From Bifidobacterium psychraerophilum (lineage in GTDB: Bacteria > Actinomycetota > Actinomycetes > Actinomycetales > Bifidobacteriaceae), in NCBI RefSeq assembly GCF_000741705.1, contig NZ_JGZI01000008.1:186001-250000 (forward strand): a stretch of DNA of 64,000 nucleotides, in the 5' to 3' direction. A program made the translations under genes and the position numbers. Under the pieces are notes generated by a model. That model did no database searches. It was not told the DNA's origin and saw nothing but the letters and a program-made list of their open reading frames with translations. Of this stretch, positions 9,436-33,890 are shown one piece after another; position 1 is the first letter of the stretch, and every line of letters starts with the position of its first letter.

Positions 9436-10716
9436 TCAGCGTGCCTCACCGGAAGGAGCAGCATCCCGTGAACGGGTGAGTCCGGGCAGGATCGTCGCGA
9501 TAAGAAGGATTACGGCGAAAACAGTCCCGGCGAGAAGACCCGCACGCAGATTGTCGTCCTGCATGGCGGATACCGTGCCCACCAGCGCGGGGCCCACCGC
9601 ACATCCGATGTCCCCCGCGACGGCGAAGAGCGCGAACATCAGAGTGCCGCCTCCCGGCATGTTCTCAACGGCCAGGGAGAATGTGCCGGGCCACATGATG
9701 CCTACCGACAAACCGGTGAGGGCGCAAGCGATCAGCCCCAACACCGGGGATGGTGCCAGCCCGGCCACCAGATAGGTGATGATGCATAGTCCGGCGCTCG
9801 ACGCTATGAAGAACCTGAGGTTGATGCGATGGCCGAGAACACCGTATATGGTGCGGCTGACGCCCATCATTACAGCGAATGCAGCGGGCCCGGCAAGGTC
9901 GCCGATCACCTTGGTCACGCCCAGACCCGTTTCGGCGAAGGCGCTCGCCCACTGAGCCATGCCCTGTTCCGCGGCTCCTGCGCAGAGCATCATGATGAAG
10001 AAGACGATGAAGGCGGGACGACGCAGCAGTTGCCTGAAGTCGAAGCGTTCGCTGCCTTCGGGGATGATCGCCGGTATCGGTGCGCCAAGGAACAGCAGCA
10101 CTCCGGCAATCGGAACCAGCGCCCACAGACAAGCCAGGGCAGGCCATGTGCCGATGCCGAAGACCCAGAGCGCCAAGGTCGAAAGCGCGACCGTCGCCAC
10201 TTGGCCCCAGCAGTAGAAGGAATGCAGCAGGCTCATCATCTTCGCCTTGTGGGCGGTGGGGCAGCCTTGCACGATCGGTGAGACCAGCACTTCGATAAGG
10301 CCGCCGCCAAGGGCATACAGCACGATGGCCAACACCAGGAAGGGGTATGGCTCCGTGACCTGAGGGGGTACGATGCCCAGCACCAGAAGACCTGCGGCTG
10401 CGAAGACATGTGCTGCGATGATGCAGGGTTTGTACCCGATACGGTCCACGTACTTGCCCGCAAGCACATCCACGATAAGCTGCGTCACGAAGTTCAACGT
10501 GATCAGCGAGGCCAGCTTGCCCAGTCCGATCCCCAAGGTCGTTGAGAAGGTGACGAAGAGCAGGGGCATGAAATTGTTGATGACCGCCTGGGTGACGTAC
10601 CCATTGAAACAGGCGACGATGGTACGCGTGTACCCCTGGCCGCCCCGGTCCGATCGGGTGCTCCGGCCGCCGAGTGAGGCATGTGCCGGATTCGGGTGCT
10701 GTTGTGTCGCCTTCAT
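9436..10716 (-). CDS. Major facilitator superfamily permease
   Basis: About 426 residues with twelve predicted membrane segments. The first begins in TRTIVACFNGYVTQAV, and the signature loop between TM2 and TM3 reads GKYVDRIGYKPCI. Start ATG 10716 is chosen because AAGGCG lies 4-9 bases upstream and because the frame further upstream (to 10878) is rich in Arg and Pro with no membrane character. The mid-protein segment GGGLIEVLVSPIVQ resembles fucose/glucose-type MFS permeases, so a sugar is a reasonable substrate guess; nothing in the sequence fixes it. It is alone on its strand, separated from the ABC operon upstream by a strong terminator. Confidence 0.82.
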   Translation of the reverse strand: MKATQQHPNPAHASLGGRSTRSDRGGQGYTRTIVACFNGYVTQAVINNFMPLLFVTFSTTLGIGLGKLASLITLNFVTQLIVDVLAGKYVDRIGYKPCIIAAHVFAAAGLLVLGIVPPQVTEPYPFLVLAIVLYALGGGLIEVLVSPIVQGCPTAHKAKMMSLLHSFYCWGQVATVALSTLALWVFGIGTWPALACLWALVPIAGVLLFLGAPIPAIIPEGSERFDFRQLLRRPAFIVFFIMMLCAGAAEQGMAQWASAFAETGLGVTKVIGDLAGPAAFAVMMGVSRTIYGVLGHRINLRFFIASSAGLCIITYLVAGLAPSPVLGLIACALTGLSVGIMWPGTFSLAVENMPGGGTLMFALFAVAGDIGCAVGPALVGTVSAMQDDNLRAGLLAGTVFAVILLIATILPGLTRSRDAAPSGEAR

Positions 10717-10916
10717 GTGTCGCCTTGTTCTGTCCGGTACCGCAAACAGCGGAGGAGTCGGGATGTCTGCCCGTCCCCGTGGGCGAGTGACCGGATCATC
10801 GATTGACGACGGTGCCAATTGACGATCCTGGCGATACGCTGTGGTGGGATATCGCCGAAGTGGTCTATCGTTGAGCAAACACAGGCGAATCTACCAGTTC
10901 CAGGAGCAGCACGCCA

Positions 10917-10968
10917 ACTGCCCCGCCGGTTTTCAACACACGGTGCTGTTGAAAGCCGGCGGGGCAGT
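10917..10968 (-). terminator. Strong stem-loop terminator downstream of the first ABC exporter operon
   Basis: Bases 10917-10938 pair with 10947-10968: a 22-bp stem with a single G-U pair and an 8-base loop. It lies 54 bases past the stop of the ABC gene at 11023 and before the MFS gene, so it isolates the two transcription units. Confidence 0.85.
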
Positions 10969-11022
10969 CGGGATGTGCCTGCCGCGGAATCGGGATCCGC
11001 AATGAGATGGACGGCGATGCCG

Positions 11023-13077
11023 TTATTCGAGTTCCACAGCCCCCGTGTACAGCTGGTAGTACTGGCCGTGTTGGGCGATCAGCTCGTTATGCGTTCCGCG
11101 TTCGATGATTCTTCCATGATCGAGAACCATGATGACATCCGCGTTGCGTACCGTCGACAGACGGTGTGCGATGACGAAGACCGTGCGGTTCTTCATCAGC
11201 GCGTCCATACCTGCCTGCACCACGGACTCGGTTCGCGTATCTATTGAGGAGGTCGCCTCGTCCAGAATCATCGCCGGTGGGTCGGCGACGGCGGCCCGGG
11301 CGATGGAGATCAGCTGCCGTTGGCCTTGTGACAGGCCGCTGCCGTCACCTTCGAGAACGGTTTGGTATCCGTCGGGTAGCATCCGGATGAAGCTGTCGGC
11401 ATTGGTCAGTCGGGCCGCGTCAATGCATTCCTCGTCACTGGCGTTCAGACGGCCGTAACGGATATTGTCCATCACCGTCCCGGTGAAGAGGTTTACATCC
11501 TGAAGGACTATGCCGAGGGAATGCCTGAGATCGGGTTTGCGGATATGGCTGACATCGATGCCGTCATAGAGAATCTGCCCCTGCTGAATGTCGTAGAAAC
11601 GGTTGATCAGGTTGGTGACCGTCGTTTTGCCCGCGCCGGTGGCTCCGACCAGAGCTATCTTCTGCCCGGGTTTGGCGAACCAGGTGATGTCGTGCAGAAC
11701 GGGTTTGTCGGGGTCGTAGCCGAAGGTCACATCGGTGAAACGGACATCGCCGCGAAGCAGCGTCAGACGTCCGTCAGCCGAGGTGACGGCGCTCTGTTTG
11801 GCTTTGAGCGCCACTTCGGCCGCCTGTCCGCTGAGGTTTCCCGCTGCCTGCAGCGAGCGGGAGCCATCGTCGCCCGCTTCGCGCTTCCATGCCCAATGCT
11901 GGGTGGCTTCCGCGGACTCGCGTACGGTACCGTCCGCGTCGATGCTGGCATTCACCAGGACCACGGTGCCGTTGTCCTGCTCCACGGGTTCATCCATCAG
12001 GGAGAATATCCGAGAAGCACCGGCAAGGGCCATCATCACCATGTTGAACTGCATCGAGACCTGCCCGATGGGGTTGATGAAGGCTCTGGACAGCGTAAGC
12101 AGGGAGACGATGGTGCCGAGGGTGAGCGTACCCGCACCGGAGAGACCCACATTGCCCCAGCCCGCGATACCCGCGATACCACCCAGGATCGCGAGCAGCA
12201 CATAGAGCAGATAGCCCATATTGCCCACCACGGGCATCGTGACATTGCCGTAGATATTCGCCTGGGTGCTCGCGTCGAAGAGCTTCTCGTTCTTCTCGGC
12301 GAAGGTGTCCGCCGTGGCTGCTTCGTGGTTGAAGATCTTGATGACCTTCTGCCCATTCACCGCCTCCTCGACGAAGCCGTTGACATCGCCGAGCGACTGC
12401 TGTTGGCGTACGAAGAACATGCCGCTGCGGGTCACCAGCACGCGGACCACGACGATCAGTACGGCCGTGAACAGCAGCGTGAAGGCGGTGAAGGGTATCG
12501 ACAGCCAGAGCATCGCGATCAGGGCCGCCAGCGCGGAGACGGCCGAGGAGAACATCTGGGGGAATGACTGGCTGATCGCCTGGCGCAGGGTGTCGGTGTC
12601 ATTCGTGTATCGGCTCATCACATCGCCGTGCTCATGGGTGTCGAAGTAGCGGATCGGCAGCTCCTGCTGATGGGCGAACATCTGGTCGCGGATCTGTTTC
12701 AGGGTGCCTTGTTCGATTCCGACGAGCAGCCAGTTGTACAGCCAGGTGCACAGCGTCCCCACCGCATACAGGCAGCCCATCAGTGTGAGGGCCTCGACCA
12801 GAGGCATCCAATCGGCATTGCTGGCTCCTACCAGAGGCAGGATATAGGTGTCGATAAGCGTCTGCAGGAAGAGTGCCGATCCTGCCTGTGCCGCGGCGGA
12901 AACCACGATGCAGAGCAGAATCACCGCCACCCGCCATCTGTAAGCGAAGATGTATCCGAATATGCGTTTGGTGGTTCCGGGCTGTGCTTTCTGGGGGCCA
13001 CGGGGTTTGCGATTCCCGAAACCGCTGTCCTTGCGGTCTTTGCCGGTCGTGGTTCCCGATGCTGTTGCCGTGCTCAT
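11023..13077 (-). CDS. ABC exporter half-transporter, consensus-site subunit
   Basis: 684 residues: a basic Gly/Lys-rich N-terminal extension, six membrane segments (about residues 45-350), then an ATPase domain. Walker A is GATGAGKTT, the signature is LSQGQRQL and Walker B is MILDEATSSID, with the catalytic Glu intact. An insert of about 80 residues separates the membrane and ATPase domains. The partner gene overlaps by four bases (ATGA) and carries a degenerate site, which is the arrangement of heterodimeric multidrug exporters such as LmrCD or BmrCD. A MarR gene heads the operon, suggesting drug- or bile-inducible efflux. The substrate is inference. Confidence 0.92.
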   Translation of the reverse strand: MSTATASGTTTGKDRKDSGFGNRKPRGPQKAQPGTTKRIFGYIFAYRWRVAVILLCIVVSAAAQAGSALFLQTLIDTYILPLVGASNADWMPLVEALTLMGCLYAVGTLCTWLYNWLLVGIEQGTLKQIRDQMFAHQQELPIRYFDTHEHGDVMSRYTNDTDTLRQAISQSFPQMFSSAVSALAALIAMLWLSIPFTAFTLLFTAVLIVVVRVLVTRSGMFFVRQQQSLGDVNGFVEEAVNGQKVIKIFNHEAATADTFAEKNEKLFDASTQANIYGNVTMPVVGNMGYLLYVLLAILGGIAGIAGWGNVGLSGAGTLTLGTIVSLLTLSRAFINPIGQVSMQFNMVMMALAGASRIFSLMDEPVEQDNGTVVLVNASIDADGTVRESAEATQHWAWKREAGDDGSRSLQAAGNLSGQAAEVALKAKQSAVTSADGRLTLLRGDVRFTDVTFGYDPDKPVLHDITWFAKPGQKIALVGATGAGKTTVTNLINRFYDIQQGQILYDGIDVSHIRKPDLRHSLGIVLQDVNLFTGTVMDNIRYGRLNASDEECIDAARLTNADSFIRMLPDGYQTVLEGDGSGLSQGQRQLISIARAAVADPPAMILDEATSSIDTRTESVVQAGMDALMKNRTVFVIAHRLSTVRNADVIMVLDHGRIIERGTHNELIAQHGQYYQLYTGAVELE

Positions 13078-23703: not shown

Positions 23704-24237
23704 CTATGCGTGGATGAGCCCCTTCAATTCAGGGTGCTCGGCGTAAATTTCCTGTAGTTCGGATGCGCTTGGTCGAACAGGGTGGTCCCTGTCCTCCTTG
23801 ACGATGCAGATGAATCCCAAGGGTCCGTCATCCGTGGCGATGAACTGATGCCATTCGTTCGAGTCCACGAACACCAGATCCCCCTCGCTCACATGCTGGC
23901 TGCGGTATCCCACCACCGCCGTGCCGCTTCCCCTGTAGATGATGACCTGATGGGTGTGACGATGATGCTCGAATGTGCTCCATCCGCCAGAGGCCACCTC
24001 GAAGTATCGAACCTGGTTGTTCTGCCCCGCATTGGAATCGAAGAGGATTCTCCGCGTGATCGACTTGAACGCCGAACCGTAACCCGATTCCTTGTATATC
24101 AGTTGGTCCACATCCTGCCAGGCCCCGGGTTGCGTACGCTTGCGAAATGGGGTCAGCTCCTTCACCACGTGGCTCGGTGTGTGATAGCTGTCCTGTGTCT
24201 GTTCCTGAGTTTCGGCTGCCTGTGTCATACCCCACAT
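23704..24237 (-). CDS. Cupin protein, candidate methylthioxylulose-5-phosphate methylsulfurylase (CupA-like)
   Basis: About 177 residues. A single cupin barrel occupies residues 60-150: the first motif region reads GGWSTFEHHRHTHQVIIYRGSG, with three candidate metal-binding His in HHRHTH and Gln where the classical cupin Glu would be. The second reads VDSNEWHQF with another His. The N-terminal half contains a basic segment and YFEVASGG. In Rhodospirillum rubrum a cupin of this style cleaves 1-methylthioxylulose-5-P to methanethiol and deoxyxylulose-5-P beside a RuBisCO-like protein. Here it is divergent from metY, the methanethiol-consuming enzyme, which supports the same role; that role is inference. 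Start: ATG 24237 has GAGG 8 bases upstream (24240 and 24228 are alternatives). Confidence 0.75.
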   Translation of the reverse strand: MWGMTQAAETQEQTQDSYHTPSHVVKELTPFRKRTQPGAWQDVDQLIYKESGYGSAFKSITRRILFDSNAGQNNQVRYFEVASGGWSTFEHHRHTHQVIIYRGSGTAVVGYRSQHVSEGDLVFVDSNEWHQFIATDDGPLGFICIVKEDRDHPVRPSASELQEIYAEHPELKGLIHA

Positions 24238-24282
24238 CATGCATACCTCGGCGATGGGATACAACGCGGAAGGCCGCATGTC

Positions 24283-24368
24283 GTTATACCAATAATCTAT
24301 CGGCGGTCATAAATCCCCATTCCCCCAATACGGGCCCTGCGCCGTTCATCTGACCGGATGCCTATAGT
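24283..24368. promoter_or_regulatory. Divergent promoter region between cupin gene and metY
   Basis: On the minus strand TATAAC at 24288-24283 is a good -10 about 46 bases before the cupin start. On the plus strand TATAGT at 24363-24368 is a good -10 about 85 bases before metY. Neither has a convincing -35, so activator control is possible. I saw no recognisable SAM riboswitch in either leader. Confidence 0.4.
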
Positions 24369-24452
24369 CAACGGCAACATACGGGTACTTCGGCCCTCAT
24401 CCCGACAGCACGGTGTGCGTGGTTCTGAAGTCAGAGAAGAATTGGGGAGAGA

Positions 24453-25772
24453 TTGGATAAGCAAACATTCGATTTTGCGACTCGTGCCGTCCACGCAGGG
24501 CTGATCCCGGACAAGGCCACTGGTGCGCGCGCGCTGCCGATCTATGAATCGGCGGCCTATGTCTTCGACAACTCCGATGATGCCGCAGCCCGCTTCGCCT
24601 TGAGGAAATACGGCGAAATCTATTCAAGGATCGTGAATCCGACGGTGGCGGCCCTGGAGGAACGTGTGGCGAGTCTGGAAGGCGGGCTCGGGGCGGTGGC
24701 AACCGCCAGTGGACTCTCGGCGCAGTTCATCACCTTCATCGCGCTGGCCTCGCAGGGGGACGAGGTGCTTGCATCCTCCGAGCTCTATGGTGGTTCGATC
24801 ACTCAGCTGGACATCACCCTGCGCAGACTGGGCATCGACACCAAGTTCATCGACAGCGACGACCCGCAGGACTACGCGGCGGCGATCACCGAGAGAACAC
24901 GATTCATATTCGTCGAAGCCGTGGCCAACCCATCTGGTCATATCGCCGATATCGAGGGTCTGGCCGCGGTCGCGCATGCGGCGGGAATACCGCTGGTGGT
25001 CGATTCGACCGTGGCGACACCCTACCTGCTGCGCCCCATCGAGCACGGTGCTGACATCGTTGTGCATTCGGCCACGAAGTTCCTCTCAGGGTCGGGAACC
25101 GTGCTTGGTGGTGTGGTGGTCGATTCGGGCACCTTCCACTGGGGTCAGGAGCGTTTTCCGGAGTTCTTCAAGCCCGTGGCGGCCTACAACAATCTCACAT
25201 GGTCGGGCAATTTCAATGAATACTCCTTCCTGACGCGTCTGCGTGCCGAACAGCTGCGGGACGTCGGGCCCGCGCTGTCGGCGCATTCGGCTTTTCTGAT
25301 CGCCCAGGGTATAGAAACCCTGCCGCTGCGTGTGCAAAGGCAGGTGGAGAACACCCGTGAGATCGCCGAGTGGCTGGAGCAACACCCCCAGGTCGAATCG
25401 GTGAACTGGGCCGGGCTGGAAACGCATGCACAGCATGATCGCGCCCTGAAATACTTCCCGAACGCAAATTCGGGTTCGGTCTTCTCCTTCACCATCAAAG
25501 GCGGGCGCGCCGCCGGGAAAATCTTCATCGATTCCCTCAATCTGCTGAGCCATGTCGCCAACATCGGTGATGTGAAGAGCCTGGCGATTCATCCGGCATC
25601 GACCACCCATGCCCAGTTGAGCGCTGAGCAGCTGCGCGAGGCCGGGATAGAAGAGGGCACGATACGTCTGAGCATAGGGATTGAAAGCGCGAAGGATCTG
25701 ATCGCCGATATCGCCCAGGCGCTTGAAACGAGTACGCAGGGGGATGCCCCGCACTCCGTCGAACAACGATAG
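24453..25772 (+). CDS. metY: O-acetylhomoserine sulfhydrylase (methanethiol-using) MetY
   Basis: 439 residues, a Cys/Met metabolism PLP enzyme. The PLP lysine is Lys209 in VHSATKFLSGSG. YGEIYSRIVNPT, ASGLSAQF and SLNLLSHVANIGDVKSL are hallmark segments of O-acetylhomoserine sulfhydrylases. The start is TTG 24453, supported by GGGGAGA a few bases upstream and by the family start FATRAVHAG. The enzyme condenses O-acetylhomoserine with sulfide or methanethiol to homocysteine or methionine. Its place beside a cupin and upstream of methylthioribose genes favours methanethiol as physiological donor, as in the MTA-isoprenoid shunt. Confidence 0.92.
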   Translation: MDKQTFDFATRAVHAGLIPDKATGARALPIYESAAYVFDNSDDAAARFALRKYGEIYSRIVNPTVAALEERVASLEGGLGAVATASGLSAQFITFIALASQGDEVLASSELYGGSITQLDITLRRLGIDTKFIDSDDPQDYAAAITERTRFIFVEAVANPSGHIADIEGLAAVAHAAGIPLVVDSTVATPYLLRPIEHGADIVVHSATKFLSGSGTVLGGVVVDSGTFHWGQERFPEFFKPVAAYNNLTWSGNFNEYSFLTRLRAEQLRDVGPALSAHSAFLIAQGIETLPLRVQRQVENTREIAEWLEQHPQVESVNWAGLETHAQHDRALKYFPNANSGSVFSFTIKGGRAAGKIFIDSLNLLSHVANIGDVKSLAIHPASTTHAQLSAEQLREAGIEEGTIRLSIGIESAKDLIADIAQALETSTQGDAPHSVEQR

Positions 25773-25790
25773 GGAAGGGATGGAAAGACC

Positions 25791-26372
25791 ATGACCGAAC
25801 AATCATTGCCTCTGGCCGCAGCAACACGGCAGATCTCGTTGAACGGGGCCTCCGGGCCCTCGGGGGTGGCCTGTACCGTCGCCACACCGGAATCGGAGCG
25901 ACGCTGGCAGGGGCCGGATGCCGCCGAGCGTAACGGCATCCTGGAAAAGGCCCGCTCGATCGCGATTGTCGGAGCCTCCGCCAATCCCTCCAGAGCCAGC
26001 TATTTCGTGGCCACATATCTGCTCCAAAGCACCAATTACACGGTGTATTTCATCAATCCCAAGGAAAGCGAAATACTCGGTCACCCGGTGTACAAGGATC
26101 TCGCATCCCTGCCGGAAGTGCCGGATATCGTCGATGTGTTCCGCCGGAGCTCGGCCATCAAGTCGGTCGCCGATGACGCCGCGGCGGTCGGTGCGCCGGT
26201 GTTGTGGATCCAACTGGGGATCTGGGATGACGATGTGGCCGAGTACTCGGAATCGCTGGGTCTGGAAGTCGTTATGGACCGATGCATAAAAATCGAGCAT
26301 GCACGTTTCCACCAGGGCCTGCATCTCTTCGGATTCAACACGGGTGTCATCTCCTCCAGAAGGGCGCGATAG
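25791..26372 (+). CDS. CoA-binding domain protein (YccU-like)
   Basis: 193 residues. Residues 45-175 form a Rossmann-type CoA-binding domain: SIAIVGASANPSRASYFVA, YTVYFINPKESEILGHPVY, VDVFRRSS, and the closing VVMDRCIKIEHAR. The N-terminal 45 residues look unstructured. It starts 18 bases after metY with AAGGGA upstream, so it is co-transcribed with metY. YccU-type proteins have no established reaction. The close link to sulfur salvage genes suggests a helper or regulatory function; it could also simply be a bystander. Confidence 0.85.
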   Translation: MTEQSLPLAAATRQISLNGASGPSGVACTVATPESERRWQGPDAAERNGILEKARSIAIVGASANPSRASYFVATYLLQSTNYTVYFINPKESEILGHPVYKDLASLPEVPDIVDVFRRSSAIKSVADDAAAVGAPVLWIQLGIWDDDVAEYSESLGLEVVMDRCIKIEHARFHQGLHLFGFNTGVISSRRAR

Positions 26373-26388
26373 ACGGCACTAGGGGACG

Positions 26389-26530
26389 ATAGCACGCTAT
26401 AAAAGACTCATATATCAGGCGGCTTGTCACTCCTCCCGCAACTTCTTACAGTGAAGAAACGCTGAACCCGAATACAACGGGAACTTGATTTTCCATACAT
26501 CCGTCGGAGCAGCGCATGAGGTTCGGATGT
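26389..26530 (+). promoter_or_regulatory. Structured leader region of the ABC importer / mtnK-mtnA / RLP operon
   Basis: The 209-base gap before the binding-protein gene holds a small palindrome ATAGC-AC-GCTAT (26389-26400), an AT-rich stretch with TATAAA and TATATC that could serve as -10, and a hairpin in which ACATCCG (26497-26503) pairs with CGGATGT (26524-26530). It is a likely promoter and regulatory leader. It does not match a riboswitch class I can name. Confidence 0.4.
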
Positions 26531-26581
26531 TCGATACAGCGATTTCTTGAGAGAGCTTGAAACAGGTTGGGGGAGACAGAC

Positions 26582-27721
26582 ATGACGGATTCATCGACGC
26601 CTACGGTTAACGGGGTCCCGGGCGGTCCACAGGGTGTGGGGCAGCCAGATGGGAAGCAACCCGGTGGGAAGAAGGGCGCAGGCCGCGTTATCGCCACGGT
26701 GGTGGCGGTGCTGGTGGTGCTGGCGATTGTGGCAGGAGTGGGCTGGTTCGTGAAGAACCGTCAATCCACCGCATCGGCCGAAGGCACGACCGGGGCGGCC
26801 AAACCCGTGATCGCGGTTTCGGCCAGAACCACCGACTCCGATTATTACGTGCAATGGCTCAACGGGGTGAAAAAGGAAGCCGCGAGAATCGGCGCGACCT
26901 TGAAGATCTATGATGCCAACGGCGACGACAGTCAGCAGATCCTCGACATCGAATCCGCGACGGCACTTAAACCGGCGGCGATCCTGGTCGATCACGGTCT
27001 GGAGGGAATCGAGCCGAATGTGAAGAAGGCTCTTGATGCGGGAATCCCGGTTGTGGGCTTCGATTCGGTCATCAGCGACAGTAGGGCGATCTCCGTATCC
27101 CAGTCGGACGAGAAGCTGTCGAAATTGGCCACCGATCGTCTGGTCAAGGACACCGACGGCAAGGCGACGGTCATCTACGCCTATGTGGCGGGCTTCGCAC
27201 CACTGGATGCGCGTAACAAGGTGTGGGAGAGCGTCAAGAAGGCGAATCCCGGCATCAAACAGGTCGCGCAGGTAGGCGTCGTCAATGATTCCACGGCGCA
27301 GCAGACCGCGGAGCAGGTCAAGGCCTCCTTGCAGGCCCACCCGGATACGACGGTGGTGTTCGCCCCCTATGACGAATTCGCGAAGGGTGCCACGCAGGCG
27401 GTCGAGGAACTTGGACTCACCGGCAAGGTCAAGGTGTATGGCGTGGATATCTCCGATGCCGATATAGCGGTGCTGGGTAAGACCGATAGCCCGTGGGTGC
27501 TGACCGCGACGACCGATCCGTCCAATGTGGGGGCCGTCGCCATTCGCACGGCATTCCGGGCGGGTGAAGGCAAGCAGACCACCAAGGATGTGTTGGTGCC
27601 TCCCGCCTTGGTAACAGCCGAAGAGATCCGTAAGAACAAGATCAGCAGTGTGTCCCAGTTGGTGAAGTACTTCCCGAGTCTGGTGACGGACGATATCTCT
27701 CCCGTCGCCGAAGCGAAGTAA
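26582..27721 (+). CDS. Sugar-type ABC transporter substrate-binding protein, membrane-anchored; candidate methylthioribose binder
   Basis: 379 residues from ATG 26582 with GGGGGAG upstream. A Gly/Pro-rich cytoplasmic N terminus of about 35 residues is followed by one membrane segment (ATVVAVLVVLAIVAGVGWFV). The extracellular domain is of the periplasmic-binding type I fold used for ribose or xylose (VSARTTDSDYYVQWLNGV, ILVDHGLEGIEPNVKKALDAGIPVVGFDS). There is no lipobox Cys, so it is held by an uncleaved anchor instead of a lipid. It heads an operon with ATPase, permease, methylthioribose kinase-isomerase and a RuBisCO-like protein; binding of methylthioribose is inferred from that. Confidence 0.85.
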   Translation: MTDSSTPTVNGVPGGPQGVGQPDGKQPGGKKGAGRVIATVVAVLVVLAIVAGVGWFVKNRQSTASAEGTTGAAKPVIAVSARTTDSDYYVQWLNGVKKEAARIGATLKIYDANGDDSQQILDIESATALKPAAILVDHGLEGIEPNVKKALDAGIPVVGFDSVISDSRAISVSQSDEKLSKLATDRLVKDTDGKATVIYAYVAGFAPLDARNKVWESVKKANPGIKQVAQVGVVNDSTAQQTAEQVKASLQAHPDTTVVFAPYDEFAKGATQAVEELGLTGKVKVYGVDISDADIAVLGKTDSPWVLTATTDPSNVGAVAIRTAFRAGEGKQTTKDVLVPPALVTAEEIRKNKISSVSQLVKYFPSLVTDDISPVAEAK

Positions 27722-27739
27722 GGACGGCGCATACAGCAT

Positions 27740-29344
27740 ATGTCGGATGCATTGCATGGGGGGACGGGCGTCGGAAGCGTCCGGAAGGTGGAGACTCCCG
27801 CTCCGGACGGCACACCCGGCACCGGGCATGAGGTGCTGAGAGTCGAAGGCATCGTGAAGCATTTCGGTGCCACGAAGGCGCTTCGCGGCGTTGATTTCAC
27901 GCTGAACAGCGGTGAGATCCTGGCGCTCGTGGGTGCCAATGGCGCGGGGAAGTCGACGCTGACCTCGATACTCTCGGGAATCGTCGAAGCCAGCGAAGGG
28001 CGCCTCGTCGTCGAAGGCAGGGAGGTCAGGCTCACCTCGATTCTCGATGCCTCGCAGGCCGGTATCGAAACGATCGTCCAATCCTTCGATGAGGCGCTGT
28101 TCCCGGGGCAGACCGTGGGCGACAATCTTGCGTTCCCCATGTTGGTGCAGCACAAGCTCGGTGCCTTCCCCGGTCCCCAGGCCATCAGACGGGCGGCGGC
28201 CGAAGTCGCCAAAGGGGTGATCGACATCCCGCTCAATACGGCGATGAGGGAACTCGATGCCTCCGAAAGGCAGCGGGTGCTTATCGCGCGTGCGCTGTTC
28301 ACGCGCCCGAAAATACTCATACTCGATGAGCCCACGGCCTCCTTGGATATCGGGGAGAGCAGAAGGCTGCATGAGCGTATCCGGGCACTCGCCGATTCGG
28401 GCACCGCGATCATCTACATCTCCCATCACATGAAGGAAGTGGCGGATATCTGCGACAGGGCCGTGGTCCTGCGGGATGGCGCGAAGGTGGGGGAATACCG
28501 TGCGCCCCTGGACATCGCCCAGATCATCCGGGCGATGCTGGGCAAAAGCGTCGAGGTGACCCAGGACGGCACACATGGTCCCGCGGCGCAGGATGGCGGA
28601 CGGGCCCAGGGCCAGCCCGAAGCGGATGGAGACATCGTGCTGAAGCTGAGGGACTTCCGCATATTCACGGACGGCGAATCGGTCAACCTCGATCTGCGTG
28701 AGGGGGAGACCCTGGGAATCACGGGCTTGATCGGCGCCGGGAAGACCGAACTGCTCTCGCAGATCGTCGGAGCTTCGCCCCTGATCGGCGGGACGATCAC
28801 ATGGCGGAATGAATCCTTCAATCCACGCGATACCGGCGAGGCGATCGCCGCGGGAATCGGATATGTACCCGAAAACCGCCAGAGTGACGCGGAGATACCC
28901 CTGTGGTCGGTCGAGGACAATCTGGTGTTTCCGGATCTGAAACGCTACCGTTCCCGTTCCGGCTTCATCAATCCTTCGGCGATACGTCGGAGCAGTGAAG
29001 CCATCATCGCGCGGATGGGTATCGTGGGCTCCTCGGATGCCCGTATCGAATCGCTCTCAGGCGGCAATCGCCAGAAGGTCATGATCGGGAGGTGGTTCGC
29101 CGCCGGGTCGAAGCTTCTGGTCATGGATGAGCCCTTCAGAGGCGTCGATATCGGTGCCAGATCAGACATAGCGACGCAACTGCGGGCTGCGGGGACGGCG
29201 ATCGTCGCATCCAGCGACCCCGATGAAATCCTCCAGGTGGCCGACCGCATCATCGTGCTGTCACATGGAGCGATCGTTGCCGAAACCAGCGCCGTCGGCA
29301 TGACGAGTGGTGAACTTTCCGAACTTATAGCGACAGGAGCTTGA
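27740..29344 (+). CDS. Sugar ABC transporter ATPase with two nucleotide-binding domains (RbsA-like)
   Basis: 534 residues. The first ATPase domain has Walker A GANGAGKST and Walker B LILDEPTASLD, but its signature is LDASERQR in place of LSGGQ. The second has GLIGAGKTE, LSGGNRQK and LVMDEPFRGVD. Duplicated ATPases of this kind serve ribose-class importers, with asymmetry between halves being common. The gene starts 18 bases after the binding-protein gene and ends 6 bases before the permease. By operon context it powers uptake of methylthioribose or a related pentose. Confidence 0.9.
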   Translation: MSDALHGGTGVGSVRKVETPAPDGTPGTGHEVLRVEGIVKHFGATKALRGVDFTLNSGEILALVGANGAGKSTLTSILSGIVEASEGRLVVEGREVRLTSILDASQAGIETIVQSFDEALFPGQTVGDNLAFPMLVQHKLGAFPGPQAIRRAAAEVAKGVIDIPLNTAMRELDASERQRVLIARALFTRPKILILDEPTASLDIGESRRLHERIRALADSGTAIIYISHHMKEVADICDRAVVLRDGAKVGEYRAPLDIAQIIRAMLGKSVEVTQDGTHGPAAQDGGRAQGQPEADGDIVLKLRDFRIFTDGESVNLDLREGETLGITGLIGAGKTELLSQIVGASPLIGGTITWRNESFNPRDTGEAIAAGIGYVPENRQSDAEIPLWSVEDNLVFPDLKRYRSRSGFINPSAIRRSSEAIIARMGIVGSSDARIESLSGGNRQKVMIGRWFAAGSKLLVMDEPFRGVDIGARSDIATQLRAAGTAIVASSDPDEILQVADRIIVLSHGAIVAETSAVGMTSGELSELIATGA

Positions 29345-29350
29345 AGCACC

Positions 29351-30340
29351 ATGGCAGATATCAGAACCGTCATCTATAAATATGGTCTTCTGGCTTTATT
29401 CGCGTTGATCATCGTGTTCTTCTTCACGGCCTTGCCGGCGTTCGGCACATTGCAGAATCTGTATGTGATTCTCCAATCGGTCGCCGTCACTGCGATCGTT
29501 GCCCTTGGAGTCACGGTCTCGATGACCGTCGGTGGTTTCGACCTGGCTGTCGGCTCCACGGTTTCGCTCTCGGTCATGGTCGTTGCGGCCGCGCAGATCT
29601 ATCACGGCCTCGGCATCGTCTGGGCTGTGGTGCTCGGCCTCGCCGCCGGGCTTTTGGTCGGATTCACCAGCGGGGCGCTTATCGTCTATGCAAGGATCCC
29701 CGACATGCTGGCCACCTTGGGGTCGATGTTCGTGTATTCGGGATTGTCGCTGATCCTGACGGCAGGAAAATCGGTTTCCACCGGGAACGGATACAACGGT
29801 CAGGCCGCCAAGGGAAACTGGGATCCCAAGTTGCTGTGGATCGGCACCGGAACGGTTTTCAGCATCCCCTTCTCCATCATCCTGGCCGTTGTGGCCACAA
29901 TCGTCGTGGTGCTCTTCCTCGGCAGGACGCGCACGGGTCGCATTCTCGAAGCGGTCGGCAACAACCCGAGGGCCGCGCGTCTGGCCGGCGTGCGTACCGG
30001 GCGATACCGGATTCTGGCCTACATGATCTCAGGCCTGCTCTCAGCACTGGGGGGCATCGTTCTGGTGGCGCGCGTCGGCAGGGGTGACATCAACGTGGGC
30101 AGCAGCTATCTGCTTGAGGCGGTCGCCGCGACGCTGATCGGATACGCGGTCCTTGGCGCCAACCGTCCGAATCCGCTCGGCACTGCTGTCGGCGCCTTAT
30201 TCGTGGGTGTGGTGGTCAATGGCCTGACGATGTTCAACGTGCCGTATTTCACGCAGGATTTCATCAAAGGCGCTCTGCTGGTGGTGGCGCTGATAGTCAG
30301 TTTCTCGAAGATATTCAATACGAGACAGCAGGAGGATTAG
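29351..30340 (+). CDS. Ribose-type ABC transporter permease
   Basis: 329 residues with about nine or ten membrane segments; the cytoplasmic coupling segment EAVGNNPRAARLAGVRTGRYRILAYMISGLLSALGG is the RbsC-family signature. A single permease gene implies a homodimer. AGGAG precedes the ATG. The next gene starts three bases after its stop, so transport and kinase genes are tightly coupled. Confidence 0.92.
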   Translation: MADIRTVIYKYGLLALFALIIVFFFTALPAFGTLQNLYVILQSVAVTAIVALGVTVSMTVGGFDLAVGSTVSLSVMVVAAAQIYHGLGIVWAVVLGLAAGLLVGFTSGALIVYARIPDMLATLGSMFVYSGLSLILTAGKSVSTGNGYNGQAAKGNWDPKLLWIGTGTVFSIPFSIILAVVATIVVVLFLGRTRTGRILEAVGNNPRAARLAGVRTGRYRILAYMISGLLSALGGIVLVARVGRGDINVGSSYLLEAVAATLIGYAVLGANRPNPLGTAVGALFVGVVVNGLTMFNVPYFTQDFIKGALLVVALIVSFSKIFNTRQQED

Positions 30341-30343
30341 ACG

Positions 30344-32695
30344 ATGTCGACGCAGTTGCTGAATGAAGAAACGGTTCTTGATTACATATCCGGGCGTGAC
30401 GATCTGAATGCGGTTGTCGATGTGCGCAAGGCCACGGTCCGTGAAGTCGGTGACGGCAACCTCAATCTGCTCTTCCTCGTGCAGGACGGCACGCATGGTC
30501 TGGCGATCAAACAGACCCTGCCCTATGTGCGTTCCGACCATTCATGGAAGGTGACGGAGGACAGCATCTTCGCGGAGGCGCGCGGACTGGATGCGGCATC
30601 ACGCTACGCCGGCGCCTACGCGCCTGAATACTACGGCCTCGATGCCGAGCGGCGTCTGATCGTGGAGGAGGATCTGTCGGATTGGCAGGTCTGGCGACCG
30701 GCTCTCAGCGCGGGGAAGATCACGCCTCTGGCGGCCCGTGACACCGGCCGTTTCGTGGCCGAGCTGGCGTATCACACCTCATACTTCGGCCAAAGCGAGC
30801 AGGATGTGCAGCGGGCCGCTGCCCAGGCGGCCAATCCTGAATTGGAGCAGATCACCGAAGACCTGATCTTCACCGAGCCCTACTACGAGCATGTGCATAA
30901 CTCCTGGGACGCCAACGTCGACGACGCGGTATCCGCCTTGCGTAACGACGAGGTGAGAACACAGGTCGCAAAATTGAAATATGAATTCCTGACCAATGGC
31001 GAAGCGCTGATCCACGGTGATCTGCATACCAATTCCATATTCGTAAGAGATGATGGGCGGGATGCTGCGCAGACCCCCGATGAAGGCGCGCATGTCAAAA
31101 TATTCGACTACGAATTCGGTTTCTATGGCCCGGTCGCATTCGATATCGGCATCCTGTGGGGGAATTTCCTGATCGCCCAGGCACGTGAATTCGCCACGCT
31201 ACCAGCCGATCGTCGGCATGCGGGAGCGGAGGGCGAGTTTCTCGAATGGCTGTTGTCCTTATACGAGGAGTCATGGAGGGGCTTCGAGGGCGAGTTCCGA
31301 CGTCTGGCAACGCACACCAGCAACAGGATCTTCACCGAGGATTTCGTCAATCAGTGGATTGCCCGCACCCTGCGTCATGCCGTGGGCTTCGCCGGAGCTG
31401 AGGGCGTGCGTCGCACCATCGGCTGGGCGAAGGTGAGTGATATCGAGACCCTCGAAGGTGAGGAGAAGGACAGGGCCGTGCGCATCGTGCTGGCCGCCTC
31501 GCGAAGGCTTCTTGAAGGCTTCGAACACATCGTGTCCTCATCGGATGTCGCCGCCATCGTGCGGGAAACGGCTGCGAGTATCCAGGTGCGAAGCAGCGAT
31601 GGAGCGCTGTCTGACGGCCCGGGCATTCCCGGAAGCGGCAAGAGTCCGCAAGCACGCCCTTCGGAAGCATTGAGGTCGCTGCGCTGGGTCGATACCGATC
31701 AAGGCGGTGCATTGCGCATCATCGATCAGCGGCGTCTGCCCGCATCGCTTGAGTACAGGAATCTGACCACGGTTGATGAGGTCATAGAATCCATCCGCAC
31801 CCTGGCTGTTCGCGGTGCGAATTCGATAGGCGCCGCGGGTGCCTTCGCATACGGTTTCGCGGTGCGCGACGGCATAGCCGCGGATGAGGCCTTCGACAAG
31901 GTGGTGGGCGCTCGCCCCACGGCCGTGACACTCAGACATGGCGTGCAATTGGCTGCTGAGCGTTATGAGAAGAATGGGGATTGGCGTGATGCCTTACGGG
32001 CCGGAGACGATATCATCGCCGCCGATGCCGATGAATGCAGACGCATCGGCGAAATCGGATCCCGTGAGCTCGCCGATGCCACCAATATCCTCACACATTG
32101 CAATACGGGCATCCTGGCGACTGCAGGTATCGGCACGGCACTCGGGGTGATCTACACCAAACATGCCAAAGGGCAGAAGGTGCACGCGTATTCGACCGAA
32201 ACGCGTCCCCTCCGTCAGGGTCTGCGATTGACGGCCTGGGAGTTGGGCCGCAACGGTGTGGCCGTGACCGCTCTGGTGGACGGGGCCGGTCCTGCCGCAC
32301 TGCACCAGGGGATTATCGATGCCGTCATCGTCGGTGCCGACCGGATAGCGGTCAATGGCGATACCGCCAATAAAATCGGCACATACAGCCTGGCGGTGGC
32401 CGCCAAGGAGAATGGAATCCCGTTCTACATCGCGGCGCCATTGTCCGCGATCGACCGAAACGCCGCTTCCGCAGAGGACATCCCGGTTGAGTTTCGTTCG
32501 GGCGAAGAGGTGCTTGATGCGCCCGGTGTGAATCAGAACCTGGACACATGGAATCCCGCCTTCGACGTCACCCCGGCGAAGCTGATCTCCGGAATCATCA
32601 CGCCCGAAGGTGTGCTCCGACCGCCTTTCGTGGATTCAATCGCCAAGGTCCTGGCGCCCGGGACGGCGCGTTCGGGCGATGGCGATCGCGCTTAG
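30344..32695 (+). CDS. mtnK/mtnA: Fused 5-methylthioribose kinase / 5-methylthioribose-1-phosphate isomerase
   Basis: 783 residues encoding two complete enzymes. Residues 1 to about 415 are MtnK (aminoglycoside-phosphotransferase fold): EVGDGNLNLLFLV, IKQTLPYVR, catalytic Asp226 in HGDLHTNSIF and metal-binding Asp255 in FDYEFGFYGPVAFDIG. A variable linker of about 30 residues follows. Residues from about 445 on are MtnA: RGANSIGAAGAFAYG, catalytic Cys586 in THCNTGILAT and Asp666 in VGADRIAVNGDTANKIGTY. The first half phosphorylates methylthioribose; the second converts the product to methylthioribulose-1-phosphate. AGGAGG precedes the ATG, three bases after the permease. Each enzyme is usually a separate protein, so the fusion is notable. 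Confidence 0.92.
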   Translation: MSTQLLNEETVLDYISGRDDLNAVVDVRKATVREVGDGNLNLLFLVQDGTHGLAIKQTLPYVRSDHSWKVTEDSIFAEARGLDAASRYAGAYAPEYYGLDAERRLIVEEDLSDWQVWRPALSAGKITPLAARDTGRFVAELAYHTSYFGQSEQDVQRAAAQAANPELEQITEDLIFTEPYYEHVHNSWDANVDDAVSALRNDEVRTQVAKLKYEFLTNGEALIHGDLHTNSIFVRDDGRDAAQTPDEGAHVKIFDYEFGFYGPVAFDIGILWGNFLIAQAREFATLPADRRHAGAEGEFLEWLLSLYEESWRGFEGEFRRLATHTSNRIFTEDFVNQWIARTLRHAVGFAGAEGVRRTIGWAKVSDIETLEGEEKDRAVRIVLAASRRLLEGFEHIVSSSDVAAIVRETAASIQVRSSDGALSDGPGIPGSGKSPQARPSEALRSLRWVDTDQGGALRIIDQRRLPASLEYRNLTTVDEVIESIRTLAVRGANSIGAAGAFAYGFAVRDGIAADEAFDKVVGARPTAVTLRHGVQLAAERYEKNGDWRDALRAGDDIIAADADECRRIGEIGSRELADATNILTHCNTGILATAGIGTALGVIYTKHAKGQKVHAYSTETRPLRQGLRLTAWELGRNGVAVTALVDGAGPAALHQGIIDAVIVGADRIAVNGDTANKIGTYSLAVAAKENGIPFYIAAPLSAIDRNAASAEDIPVEFRSGEEVLDAPGVNQNLDTWNPAFDVTPAKLISGIITPEGVLRPPFVDSIAKVLAPGTARSGDGDRA

Positions 32696-32731
32696 CGGCG
32701 CATCGCACAGTGATGTATGTGGATAGTCGTG

Positions 32732-32754
32732 TTCCTGTCTGCAGTGGACAGGAA
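32732..32754 (+). promoter_or_regulatory. Hairpin just upstream of the RuBisCO-like gene
   Basis: TTCCTGTC (32732-32739) pairs exactly with GACAGGAA (32747-32754) around a 7-base loop, ending a few bases before the ribosome binding site of the next gene. It may tune mRNA processing or translation between mtnK/mtnA and the RuBisCO-like gene. Confidence 0.45.
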
Positions 32755-32768
32755 GGAAAGGTGAAGGG

Positions 32769-33890
32769 ATGATGTCATCATCAGCAAGCATCGAGGTCGA
32801 ATACGAGATCCTCGGTGATGTCCGGGAGGCGCGGCAGCGAGCCGAATCGATCGCTGTTGAGCAGAGTCATGAGTTTCCCCGGGAATACGCACCCGCGAAA
32901 GCGGATCGTTCGCTTGGACGCCTCAGCAGTCTGGAGAATATCGATGACAACCGCGCCAGGGCGGTTATCTCATATCCGGAGGATCTCACCGCATTCGAAT
33001 TCCCCCAGCTGCTGGTGGTGCTGCTGGGCAATGCCTCGCTGCTGCCAGGTGTGCGCCTGACGGATATCCGCATCAGCGATGCCTTCGCGCAGGGGATCGG
33101 GGGAGGGCCGAAACTGGGTATCGATGGAATCAGAAGAGTCCTCGGGGTGCCGAGCAGGCCGTTATTGGCGACGGCGCTCAAGCCGGTGGGTCTCGATACC
33201 GAGGACATCGCCAAGGATGCCTATGATTGCGCATTCGGTGGTGTGGATGTCATCAAGGACGATCAGGGACTCGGCAACCAACGATGGTCGCCCTTCGCGC
33301 AACGGGTCCCGGCCGTGTCGCAGGCCATACGCGAGGCCAATGAACGCAGCGGGGGGCATAGTGTGTACCTGCCCTGCTTCAACCCGCCGATCGGTCATAT
33401 CCAGGAGCATGTGGATATCCTGCTGCGCAACCATGTGGGTGGATGTCTCGCGGTTCCTGGGATCACCGGATTCGATGTCATCGGATACCTTCGCGACAAT
33501 ACGCCTGAGGATTTCATCATCTACGCGCATCCCGCCTTCCTCGGCGGGTGGACGGCTTCGCCGGACCATGGCATTCGTGAAGACCTGCTTTTCGGCCATC
33601 TCCTGCGCCTGGCCGGTGCGGACTCCGTGATCTTCCCGAGCTTCGGAGGCCGTTTCACTTTCAGCAAGGAACAGTGCGGTCTGATCGCGCGCAAGGCACG
33701 GGACACTTTCGCCGGTCTCAACCGGTCCCTGCCTTCGCCTGGCGGCGGCATGTCCGTGGAGCGTATCCCGGAGCTTGTCGATTTCTATGGCAATGACACG
33801 ATGTTCCTCATCGGCGGTGCGCTTCATGCATCCGGGAGTCTGGCAGAGGGGGCCAGGAAGTTCCGCGAAGCGGCTGAACGCTTCTCATGA
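32769..33890 (+). CDS. RuBisCO-like protein (form IV), candidate methylthioribulose-1-phosphate isomerase
   Basis: 373 residues, shorter than true RuBisCO large subunits. LLATALKPVGL contains Lys138, matching the first active-site Lys. GGVDVIKDDQG contains Lys163 (the carbamylated Lys position), Asp164 and Asp165, but Gln166 where RuBisCO has the metal ligand Glu. HPAFLGGW and the phosphate-binding SPGGGMS are present; the loop 6 Lys is not visible. Form IV proteins do not fix CO2. Members act either as the MtnW enolase of aerobic methionine salvage or as the isomerase of the MTA-isoprenoid shunt. No MtnX, MtnB or MtnD is nearby, whereas a cupin and MetY are, so the isomerase role is favoured. 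Confidence 0.88.
   Translation: MMSSSASIEVEYEILGDVREARQRAESIAVEQSHEFPREYAPAKADRSLGRLSSLENIDDNRARAVISYPEDLTAFEFPQLLVVLLGNASLLPGVRLTDIRISDAFAQGIGGGPKLGIDGIRRVLGVPSRPLLATALKPVGLDTEDIAKDAYDCAFGGVDVIKDDQGLGNQRWSPFAQRVPAVSQAIREANERSGGHSVYLPCFNPPIGHIQEHVDILLRNHVGGCLAVPGITGFDVIGYLRDNTPEDFIIYAHPAFLGGWTASPDHGIREDLLFGHLLRLAGADSVIFPSFGGRFTFSKEQCGLIARKARDTFAGLNRSLPSPGGGMSVERIPELVDFYGNDTMFLIGGALHASGSLAEGARKFREAAERFS

Follow-up and report, generated by a model that had tools for sequence, protein, structure and literature searches.

Does a 10-kb gene cluster of Bifidobacterium psychraerophilum encode a route that salvages methylthioribose (MTR) to methionine with no oxygen-requiring step? The locus lies at positions 23704-33890 of a window of 64,000 nucleotides, the whole stretch of DNA that was analyzed (contig NZ_JGZI01000008.1, positions 186,001 to 250,000), and a preliminary description had proposed that it runs the chemistry of the methylthioadenosine (MTA)-isoprenoid shunt of Rhodospirillum rubrum. 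In this study, the open frames of the locus were scored against Pfam and curated NCBIfam/TIGRFAM models, and related loci, the remaining genome and the wider family of the RuBisCO-like protein (RLP) were analyzed. Five parts had been named earlier: a cupin, an O-acetylhomoserine sulfhydrylase (MetY), a ribose-type ATP-binding cassette (ABC) importer, a methylthioribose kinase (MtnK) fused to a methylthioribose-1-phosphate isomerase (MtnA), and the RLP. All five were recovered as open frames at the reported places with domain scores in agreement, and a gene for a coenzyme A (CoA)-binding protein was added to the list. As judged from their sequences, these genes form a conserved, co-inherited set comprising the parts of an O2-independent MTR route, and the locus probably serves MTR uptake and O2-independent salvage to methionine and 1-deoxyxylulose 5-phosphate (DXP), akin to the MTA-isoprenoid shunt.

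Both halves of the fusion exceed curated equivalog cut-offs, residues 5-406 for TIGR01767 (MTRK, 321.8 against 275) and residues 454-759 for TIGR00512 (mtnA, 339.6 against 279), and the motifs HGDLH, DYEF, THCN and GADRI are retained. The fusion described earlier is a single frame in the window, but MtnK and MtnA are encoded in separate frames in four related loci (L034, L044, L046 and L045). Since it is confined to the window among these five loci, the fusion is either a lineage-specific feature or an assembly frameshift. For the cupin, the best solved match was 3jzv (Rru_A2000; E=1.3e-30, 44% identity), and H106, H108, H110 and H144 correspond to His in all 11 cupins aligned. By this match and the four His residues, the cupin agrees at the sequence level with the methylsulfurylase of the MTA-isoprenoid shunt: in the excerpted text of PMC4334135, Rru_A2000 is the 1-methylthio-xylulose-5-phosphate methylsulfurylase of R. 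rubrum, and a glutathione-methylthiol adduct depends on it. MetY scores above the TIGR01326 cut-off, which at the sequence level agrees with methanethiol capture. It shares 89% identity with the copy of congener G015 and at most 46% with other congener copies; in other families of the order the top matches reach 58-60%, more than the other bifidobacterial copies. Because it is nearer to the copies of other families than to bifidobacterial ones, this MetY was probably acquired together with the locus.

In the rest of the genome, mtnN and dxr, which had been named earlier as genes to look for, were both found above cut-off. MtnN scored 113.8 on TIGR01704 (cut-off 73.8) and 164.5 on NF004079, slightly below its cut-off of 169. 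Dxr reached 388.7 (cut-off 315.7), so that DXP could enter the methylerythritol phosphate (MEP) pathway. Dxs was present as well (NF003933, 711.6 against 395; TIGR00204 below its own cut-off). Two PF01048 genes were detected, MtnN and one with sub-cut-off scores on AMP-nucleosidase, DeoD and uridine-phosphorylase models; since neither scores as MtnP, entry through this phosphorylase as in R. rubrum is not indicated. The genome gave no match to acireductone dioxygenase (MtnD, PF03079), and the control was positive in 5 of 14 genomes, two of them over cut-off. Three class II aldolase genes were found, all of which pass the cut-off of the L-ribulose-5-phosphate 4-epimerase subfamily PRK06557 (AraD-type). 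These three reach only 71-75 bits on the mtnB model TIGR03328 (cut-off 137), and none of them is Ald2/DrdA, the aldolase of the dihydroxyacetone phosphate (DHAP) shunt, as judged by the epimerase-model scores without an Ald2-specific model. The lack of MtnB and MtnD, noted earlier for the window, thereby extends to the genome.

These results bear on whether the locus could be a remnant or variant of classical aerobic salvage with the RLP acting as the enolase MtnW. The top NCBIfam models of the RLP are indeed two mtnW models, but its scores of 194.7 and 149 bits are far under the cut-offs of 409 and 513.6; as the genome also lacks a match to the acireductone dioxygenase family and an MtnB over cut-off, we regard such a remnant as extremely unlikely. 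MtnW salvage of Bacillus subtilis shares MtnN, MtnK, MtnA and an RLP with the system described here and differs from it in these same three respects.

The genes are rare in the genus and occur together. Over 27 genomes of the genus, including that of the window, the RLP was present in two; MtnK-MtnA, the cupin and the locus-type MetY were present in 2 of 25, namely the two with the RLP. Apart from MetY relatives, the remaining matches of these searches were a partial MtnA in one genome of the order and, in another, a weak cupin match (E=1.2e-4). In congener G015 (locus L034), gene order and orientation are identical, at 72-90% identity. Among named species, the nearest RLP carriers are Bifidobacterium myosotis (L044) and B. 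miconisargentati (L046); they show the same order plus one inserted gene, and their cupins run off the end of the stretch. One 10-kb cluster is carried by at least four bifidobacteria, and since its order is kept in the congener, B. myosotis and B. miconisargentati, the arrangement is not due to chance. In Amnibacterium kyonggiense (L045), importer, MtnK, MtnA and RLP are followed by a divergent cupin; no MetY match was found there within the stretch examined. The novelty claimed earlier for bifidobacteria agrees with the open-licence literature searched, in which no report of such a pathway in these organisms was found. In the part of PMC4384745 available, methionine-salvage RLPs of infant gut samples are arranged in a tree, and none is tied to Bifidobacterium.

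The inserted gene (L044:2445-3491, L046:2402-3445) encodes a nucleoside hydrolase (PF01156) and lies between the CoA-binding gene and the gene of the substrate-binding protein (SBP). A second nucleoside hydrolase is located downstream in B. myosotis (L044:12490-13665); the window, L034 and L045 yielded no homologue. That B. myosotis and B. miconisargentati carry such a gene within the operon fits a nucleoside-derived sugar, and the enzyme might release MTR from MTA.

Conservation also bears on the reading that the locus is a pentose operon for another deoxy- or thio-sugar, with the RLP as a sugar-acid enzyme of the apionate type and MetY as a chance neighbor. The importer is of a generic ribose type, as this would require, and the top NCBIfam model of the permease is ribose permease (157 bits, cut-off 398). 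However, MtnK and MtnA exceed equivalog cut-offs, the RLP reaches only 82 bits on the OiaX model (cut-off 700), and the genes for MetY, cupin and RLP remain linked in four bifidobacterial species, which makes a pentose operon of this kind very unlikely. On model cut-offs, the classical pathway, the DHAP shunt and an apionate-type RLP were rejected.

For the locus as an MTR salvage system, the following order of steps is proposed. The ABC importer would take in MTR, for example that excreted by other bacteria; alternatively, the cell's own MTA could be converted to MTR by MtnN, encoded outside the locus. MtnK would then form MTR 1-phosphate and MtnA methylthioribulose 1-phosphate, the carbonyl of which would be shifted by the RLP to give 1-methylthio-xylulose 5-phosphate. 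From this compound, the cupin would transfer the methylthio group to a thiol and free DXP, which would pass to the MEP pathway via Dxr. Methanethiol freed from the mixed disulfide would finally be combined with O-acetylhomoserine to methionine by the locus-specific MetY. The CoA-binding protein probably has a role in the last two steps, perhaps by presenting CoA as the thiol. Every substrate in this scheme, the uptake step, the chemistry from the RLP onwards and the role of CoA are what we infer from gene content. The earlier view that entry proceeds from MTR through MtnK and not through a phosphorylase holds in so far as MtnK is over its cut-off and no MtnP was seen, but supply from the cell's own MTA through MtnN is also possible. 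Calling the pathway self-contained was too strong, because Dxr and MtnN lie outside the locus.

The same kinase and isomerase would also suit a pathway mainly for 5-deoxyribose derived from by-products of radical S-adenosylmethionine enzymes, in which the RLP would isomerize 5-deoxyribulose 1-phosphate (1,3-isomerization) to DXP, a reaction plausible on chemical grounds, and methylthio chemistry would be secondary or absent. In the available portions of the two sources, MtnK and MtnA handle both sugars in the DHAP shunt (PMC10986504), and clusters of kinase, isomerase and aldolase salvage 5-deoxyribose (PMC6079011). Such a pathway leaves the methylsulfurylase-like cupin and the locus-specific MetY unexplained and is considered unlikely as the main function; MTR and 5-deoxyribose could be used in parallel.

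To survey the wider RLP family, a genome collection was scanned once; at least 596 stretches matched, of which 583 were confirmed and the best 80 analyzed. Partners were scored by tblastn, using a single query for each gene, as a transketolase half within 2.5 kb and a cupin within 10 kb of the RLP. Among the best 80 loci, 49 have a split transketolase, 9 a cupin, none both and 22 neither (some contigs end nearby, and divergent cupins could be missed). The probability of no overlap between cupin and transketolase would be 8.7e-5 (hypergeometric) if the loci were independent; they are related and hence not independent, and an independent-pairs test on the tree found only 3 pairs on starred branches and had no power. 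Of the 49 transketolase-linked loci, 15 have MtnA and 11 have MtnK at a distance of at most 10 kb, and some have an ABC importer. Both enzymes accompany the RLP in 3 of the 9 cupin loci, all from Bifidobacterium or Amnibacterium. The best solved match of the window RLP is 3qfw (E=5e-69), which we take to be an RLP of Rhodopseudomonas palustris. The 83 tabulated rows of an alignment of 84 RLPs all share with it Lys 138, Lys 163, Asp 164, Asp 165, His 254 and Arg 295. The comparison ran against 3qfw and left out the R. rubrum RLP, which is Rru_A1998 in the excerpted PMC4334135.

Several observations weigh against MTR salvage by the proposed route. Position 166 of the RLP, presumably equivalent to the RuBisCO metal ligand Glu 204, is Gln; it is His in 78 of 84 aligned rows and Gln in six, namely the window, G015, B. 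myosotis, B. miconisargentati, Amnibacterium and one actinomycete metagenome-assembled genome (MAG) without a detected cupin. In a midpoint-rooted tree of 90 rows, the RLPs of the window, three other bifidobacteria and Amnibacterium make up one clade (100/100). This clade is nested in a set (99/92) that includes the cupin-linked L102 and transketolase-linked rows of actinobacterial and chloroflexal origin, away from 3qfw, which stands in a separate set (99/99) with cupin-linked Meiothermus, Gemmatimonadetes, Ectothiorhodospiraceae and Nitrospirae rows, two partnerless rows and four distant ones. Because the window RLP is on another branch than 3qfw, its product is assigned at a distance. MtnK is also present within 10 kb of RLPs where no cupin was detected, in 11 of the 49 transketolase-linked and 2 of the 22 partnerless loci. 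In four of four checked genomes from other families of the taxonomic order (L145, L146, L147 and L148), the CoA-binding gene likewise follows MetY, in stretches that lack RLP, cupin and MtnK, so the pair is not pathway-specific. The SBP scores under the cut-offs of all 11 NCBIfam models listed and thus passes no transporter cut-off, which makes MTR uptake a guess. Finally, bifidobacteria to our knowledge lack glutathione; this is the thiol of the known shunt in the excerpt of PMC4334135. According to section 12 of PMC6302742, the thiol is expected to vary between organisms.

The assumption that the locus has the same chemistry as R. rubrum is supported by similarity for the cupin, the nearest solved relative of which is the methylsulfurylase Rru_A2000, and is less certain for the RLP, which is homologous to 3qfw but groups separately from it and has Gln 166. 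When the 12 cupin-linked RLP rows were forced into a single clade, this was rejected with the distant rows included (p-AU 0.002) and not rejected after 6 distant rows were dropped (p-AU 0.068, quick tree). The tree suggests a partner switch from transketolase to cupin in the lineage of bifidobacteria and Amnibacterium.

The best solved relative of the CoA-binding protein carries the name putative CoA-binding protein. In L102, from an actinomycete MAG, a single frame of 299 residues comprises CoA_binding_2 followed by a cupin (L102:1068-1967, minus strand) and is divergent from the adjoining RLP gene, which hints at CoA as the thiol. The 11 matches at E up to 1e-25, which came from 10 of 396 Actinomycetota genomes, contained no further CoA-binding/cupin fusion, and a long open frame in L155 was rejected as it is not a fusion. 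The idea of the CoA-binding protein as a partner of the cupin only is weakened by the four MetY-adjacent copies that stand without RLP or cupin. As the simplest common thread, we infer that methylthio groups are handled via the CoA thiol.

The split transketolases differ from solved ones in conserved motifs. All 46 aligned N-halves read IGA(E/D)HSPG compared with GHPDMKKVPG in the solved split transketolase 6yak, and all 50 aligned C-halves read GF(L/V)PG...GGx(T/S)HQ compared with THAG...GEDGASHQ in 6yaj. The 49 loci account for 44 of these N- and 48 of these C-halves, and L097 and L115, with a more distant transketolase, together supply two of each; L083 contributed none. The altered motifs presumably cover the donor-contact His and Asp positions. 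Transketolase-linked loci are found within L047-L119, for example L057:7990-11110, L054:7970-11125 and L077:6145-9277. A pairing of transketolase and RLP was not found described in the literature searched for transketolase with RLP or methylthioribose, and these clusters might represent an undescribed MTR or 5-deoxyribose route. A link between transketolase and 5-deoxyribose is not new in itself, since in the available text of PMC8102628 an ordinary promiscuous transketolase converts 5-deoxyribose to 7-deoxysedoheptulose; a transketolase-like step suggested for M. jannaschii is cited there as well.

Such clusters raise the alternative that uptake and the RLP step are as proposed, with the product passing mainly to a thiamine-diphosphate enzyme and the cupin having another role. 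This would be in line with the split transketolase beside the RLP in 49 of the best 80 loci and with the grouping of the window RLP with such rows. However, the dxs model, which scores 160 bits on the split C-half of L057, finds in the B. psychraerophilum genome only Dxs and one transketolase frame of 703 amino acids, which keeps the ordinary donor-site motifs GHPE, THD and GEDGPTH, and we consider a thiamine-diphosphate enzyme as the main acceptor quite unlikely. A broader scenario, which as a whole appears possible but doubtful, is that most sampled members of the RLP family serve an undescribed O2-independent thiamine-diphosphate route. The split transketolase would cleave 1-methylthio-xylulose 5-phosphate, or DXP formed from 5-deoxyribose, to glyceraldehyde 3-phosphate and a two-carbon unit, and would perhaps expel methanethiol. 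In bifidobacteria, a CoA-using cupin would have replaced the transketolase, and CoA, presented by the neighboring CoA-binding protein, would stand in for glutathione.

Two further kinds of loci were observed in this family. In L105 and L115 (Lachnospiraceae), an ABC importer, MtnK, MtnA, a class II aldolase and the RLP occur together with no transketolase beside the RLP, that of L115 being 8-10 kb away; possibly, two routes start there from one sugar. L082:8062-11276 holds an MtnA-RLP pair in which the metal-ligand position is Gln; neither a cupin nor a transketolase was detected there, and its frame 10074-11276 has, judged by eye, the look of a PatB/MalY-type C-S lyase.

Among known systems, the MTA-isoprenoid shunt of R. 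rubrum and R. palustris, as far as described in the excerpts of PMC5893883 and PMC4334135, has in common with the bifidobacterial locus MtnA, an RLP of the isomerase-like family, a homologue of the cupin methylsulfurylase, MetY, the passage of DXP into the MEP pathway and the absence of an oxygen step. In the excerpted part of PMC5893883, RLP1 of R. palustris is the isomerase, RLP and cupin are the distinguishing enzymes of the shunt, and MtnP is not named. The shunt of R. rubrum is entered via MtnP, whereas entry in the bifidobacterial system would be via MtnK (and MtnN). The importer and the CoA-binding protein are present only on the bifidobacterial side, the genes form one 10-kb locus here and separate loci as implied by the R. 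rubrum locus tags, and the bifidobacterial RLP, with Gln 166, is on another branch than 3qfw. The DHAP shunt of pathogenic E. coli and Bacillus thuringiensis (PMC10986504 and PMC6079011, both in part) shares MtnN, MtnK and MtnA, which lead to a 5-deoxypentulose 1-phosphate, and some of its clusters include sugar transporter genes, as here; it uses the aldolase Ald2/DrdA, in contrast to the three AraD-type class II aldolases found here. Transketolase-linked clusters have an RLP of the same wider family, with a split transketolase of altered motifs in place of the bifidobacterial cupin. The locus is best filed as a putative new variant working like the MTA-isoprenoid shunt, with formal membership hinging on the RLP step.

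If correct, a fermentative bifidobacterium importing MTR would provide an O2-free route of sulfur cross-feeding and a source or sink of methanethiol, and its DXP supply would be partly controlled by a waste sugar. MTR is excreted as waste by some bacteria including E. coli according to the excerpt of PMC6302742. The nearest pathway that has been proven is that of purple bacteria, and comparing loci suggests that related pathways form a family yet to be charted. The comparison also makes two questions testable: which thiol replaces glutathione in other bacteria, as raised in section 12 of PMC6302742, and what role RLPs have beside a transketolase in place of a cupin (49 of the best 80 loci).

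Coordinates of the features of the locus in the window, with strand and supporting model score
Feature	Position	Strand	Evidence
Cupin, candidate 1-methylthio-xylulose-5-phosphate methylsulfurylase	23704..24279	-	PF07883, 42.6 bits
Divergent intergenic region between the start codons of cupin and MetY	24280..24452	.	conserved short block
MetY, O-acetylhomoserine sulfhydrylase, locus-specific copy	24453..25772	+	TIGR01326, 569.8 > 495.1
CoA-binding protein (CoA_binding_2), between MetY and importer	25791..26372	+	PF13380, 136.8 bits
Sugar-type ABC substrate-binding protein (SBP)	26567..27721	+	PF13407, 126.3 bits
ABC ATPase, double domain, sugar type	27740..29344	+	PF00005 in two stretches
ABC permease, ribose type	29351..30340	+	PF02653, 146.4 bits
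Methylthioribose kinase (MtnK) fused to methylthioribose-1-phosphate isomerase (MtnA)	30344..32695	+	TIGR01767 and TIGR00512
RLP, candidate methylthioribulose-1-phosphate 1,3-isomerase	32769..33890	+	PF00016, 83 bits

MetY through RLP are seven plus-strand frames with gaps of at most 195 bases, and the cupin is divergent. The G+C content of the locus (60.1%) is close to that of the window (59.3%), so composition gives no sign of foreign origin. An Rfam search of positions 17000-40000 with E up to 1 gave one tRNA, two sub-threshold matches and no riboswitch, and a riboswitch or other RNA control was rejected on this result. In the gap between cupin and MetY, a short block, CAATAA followed by TAT, is common to all four aligned bifidobacterial loci (window, L034, L044 and L046) and is possibly an operator or promoter.

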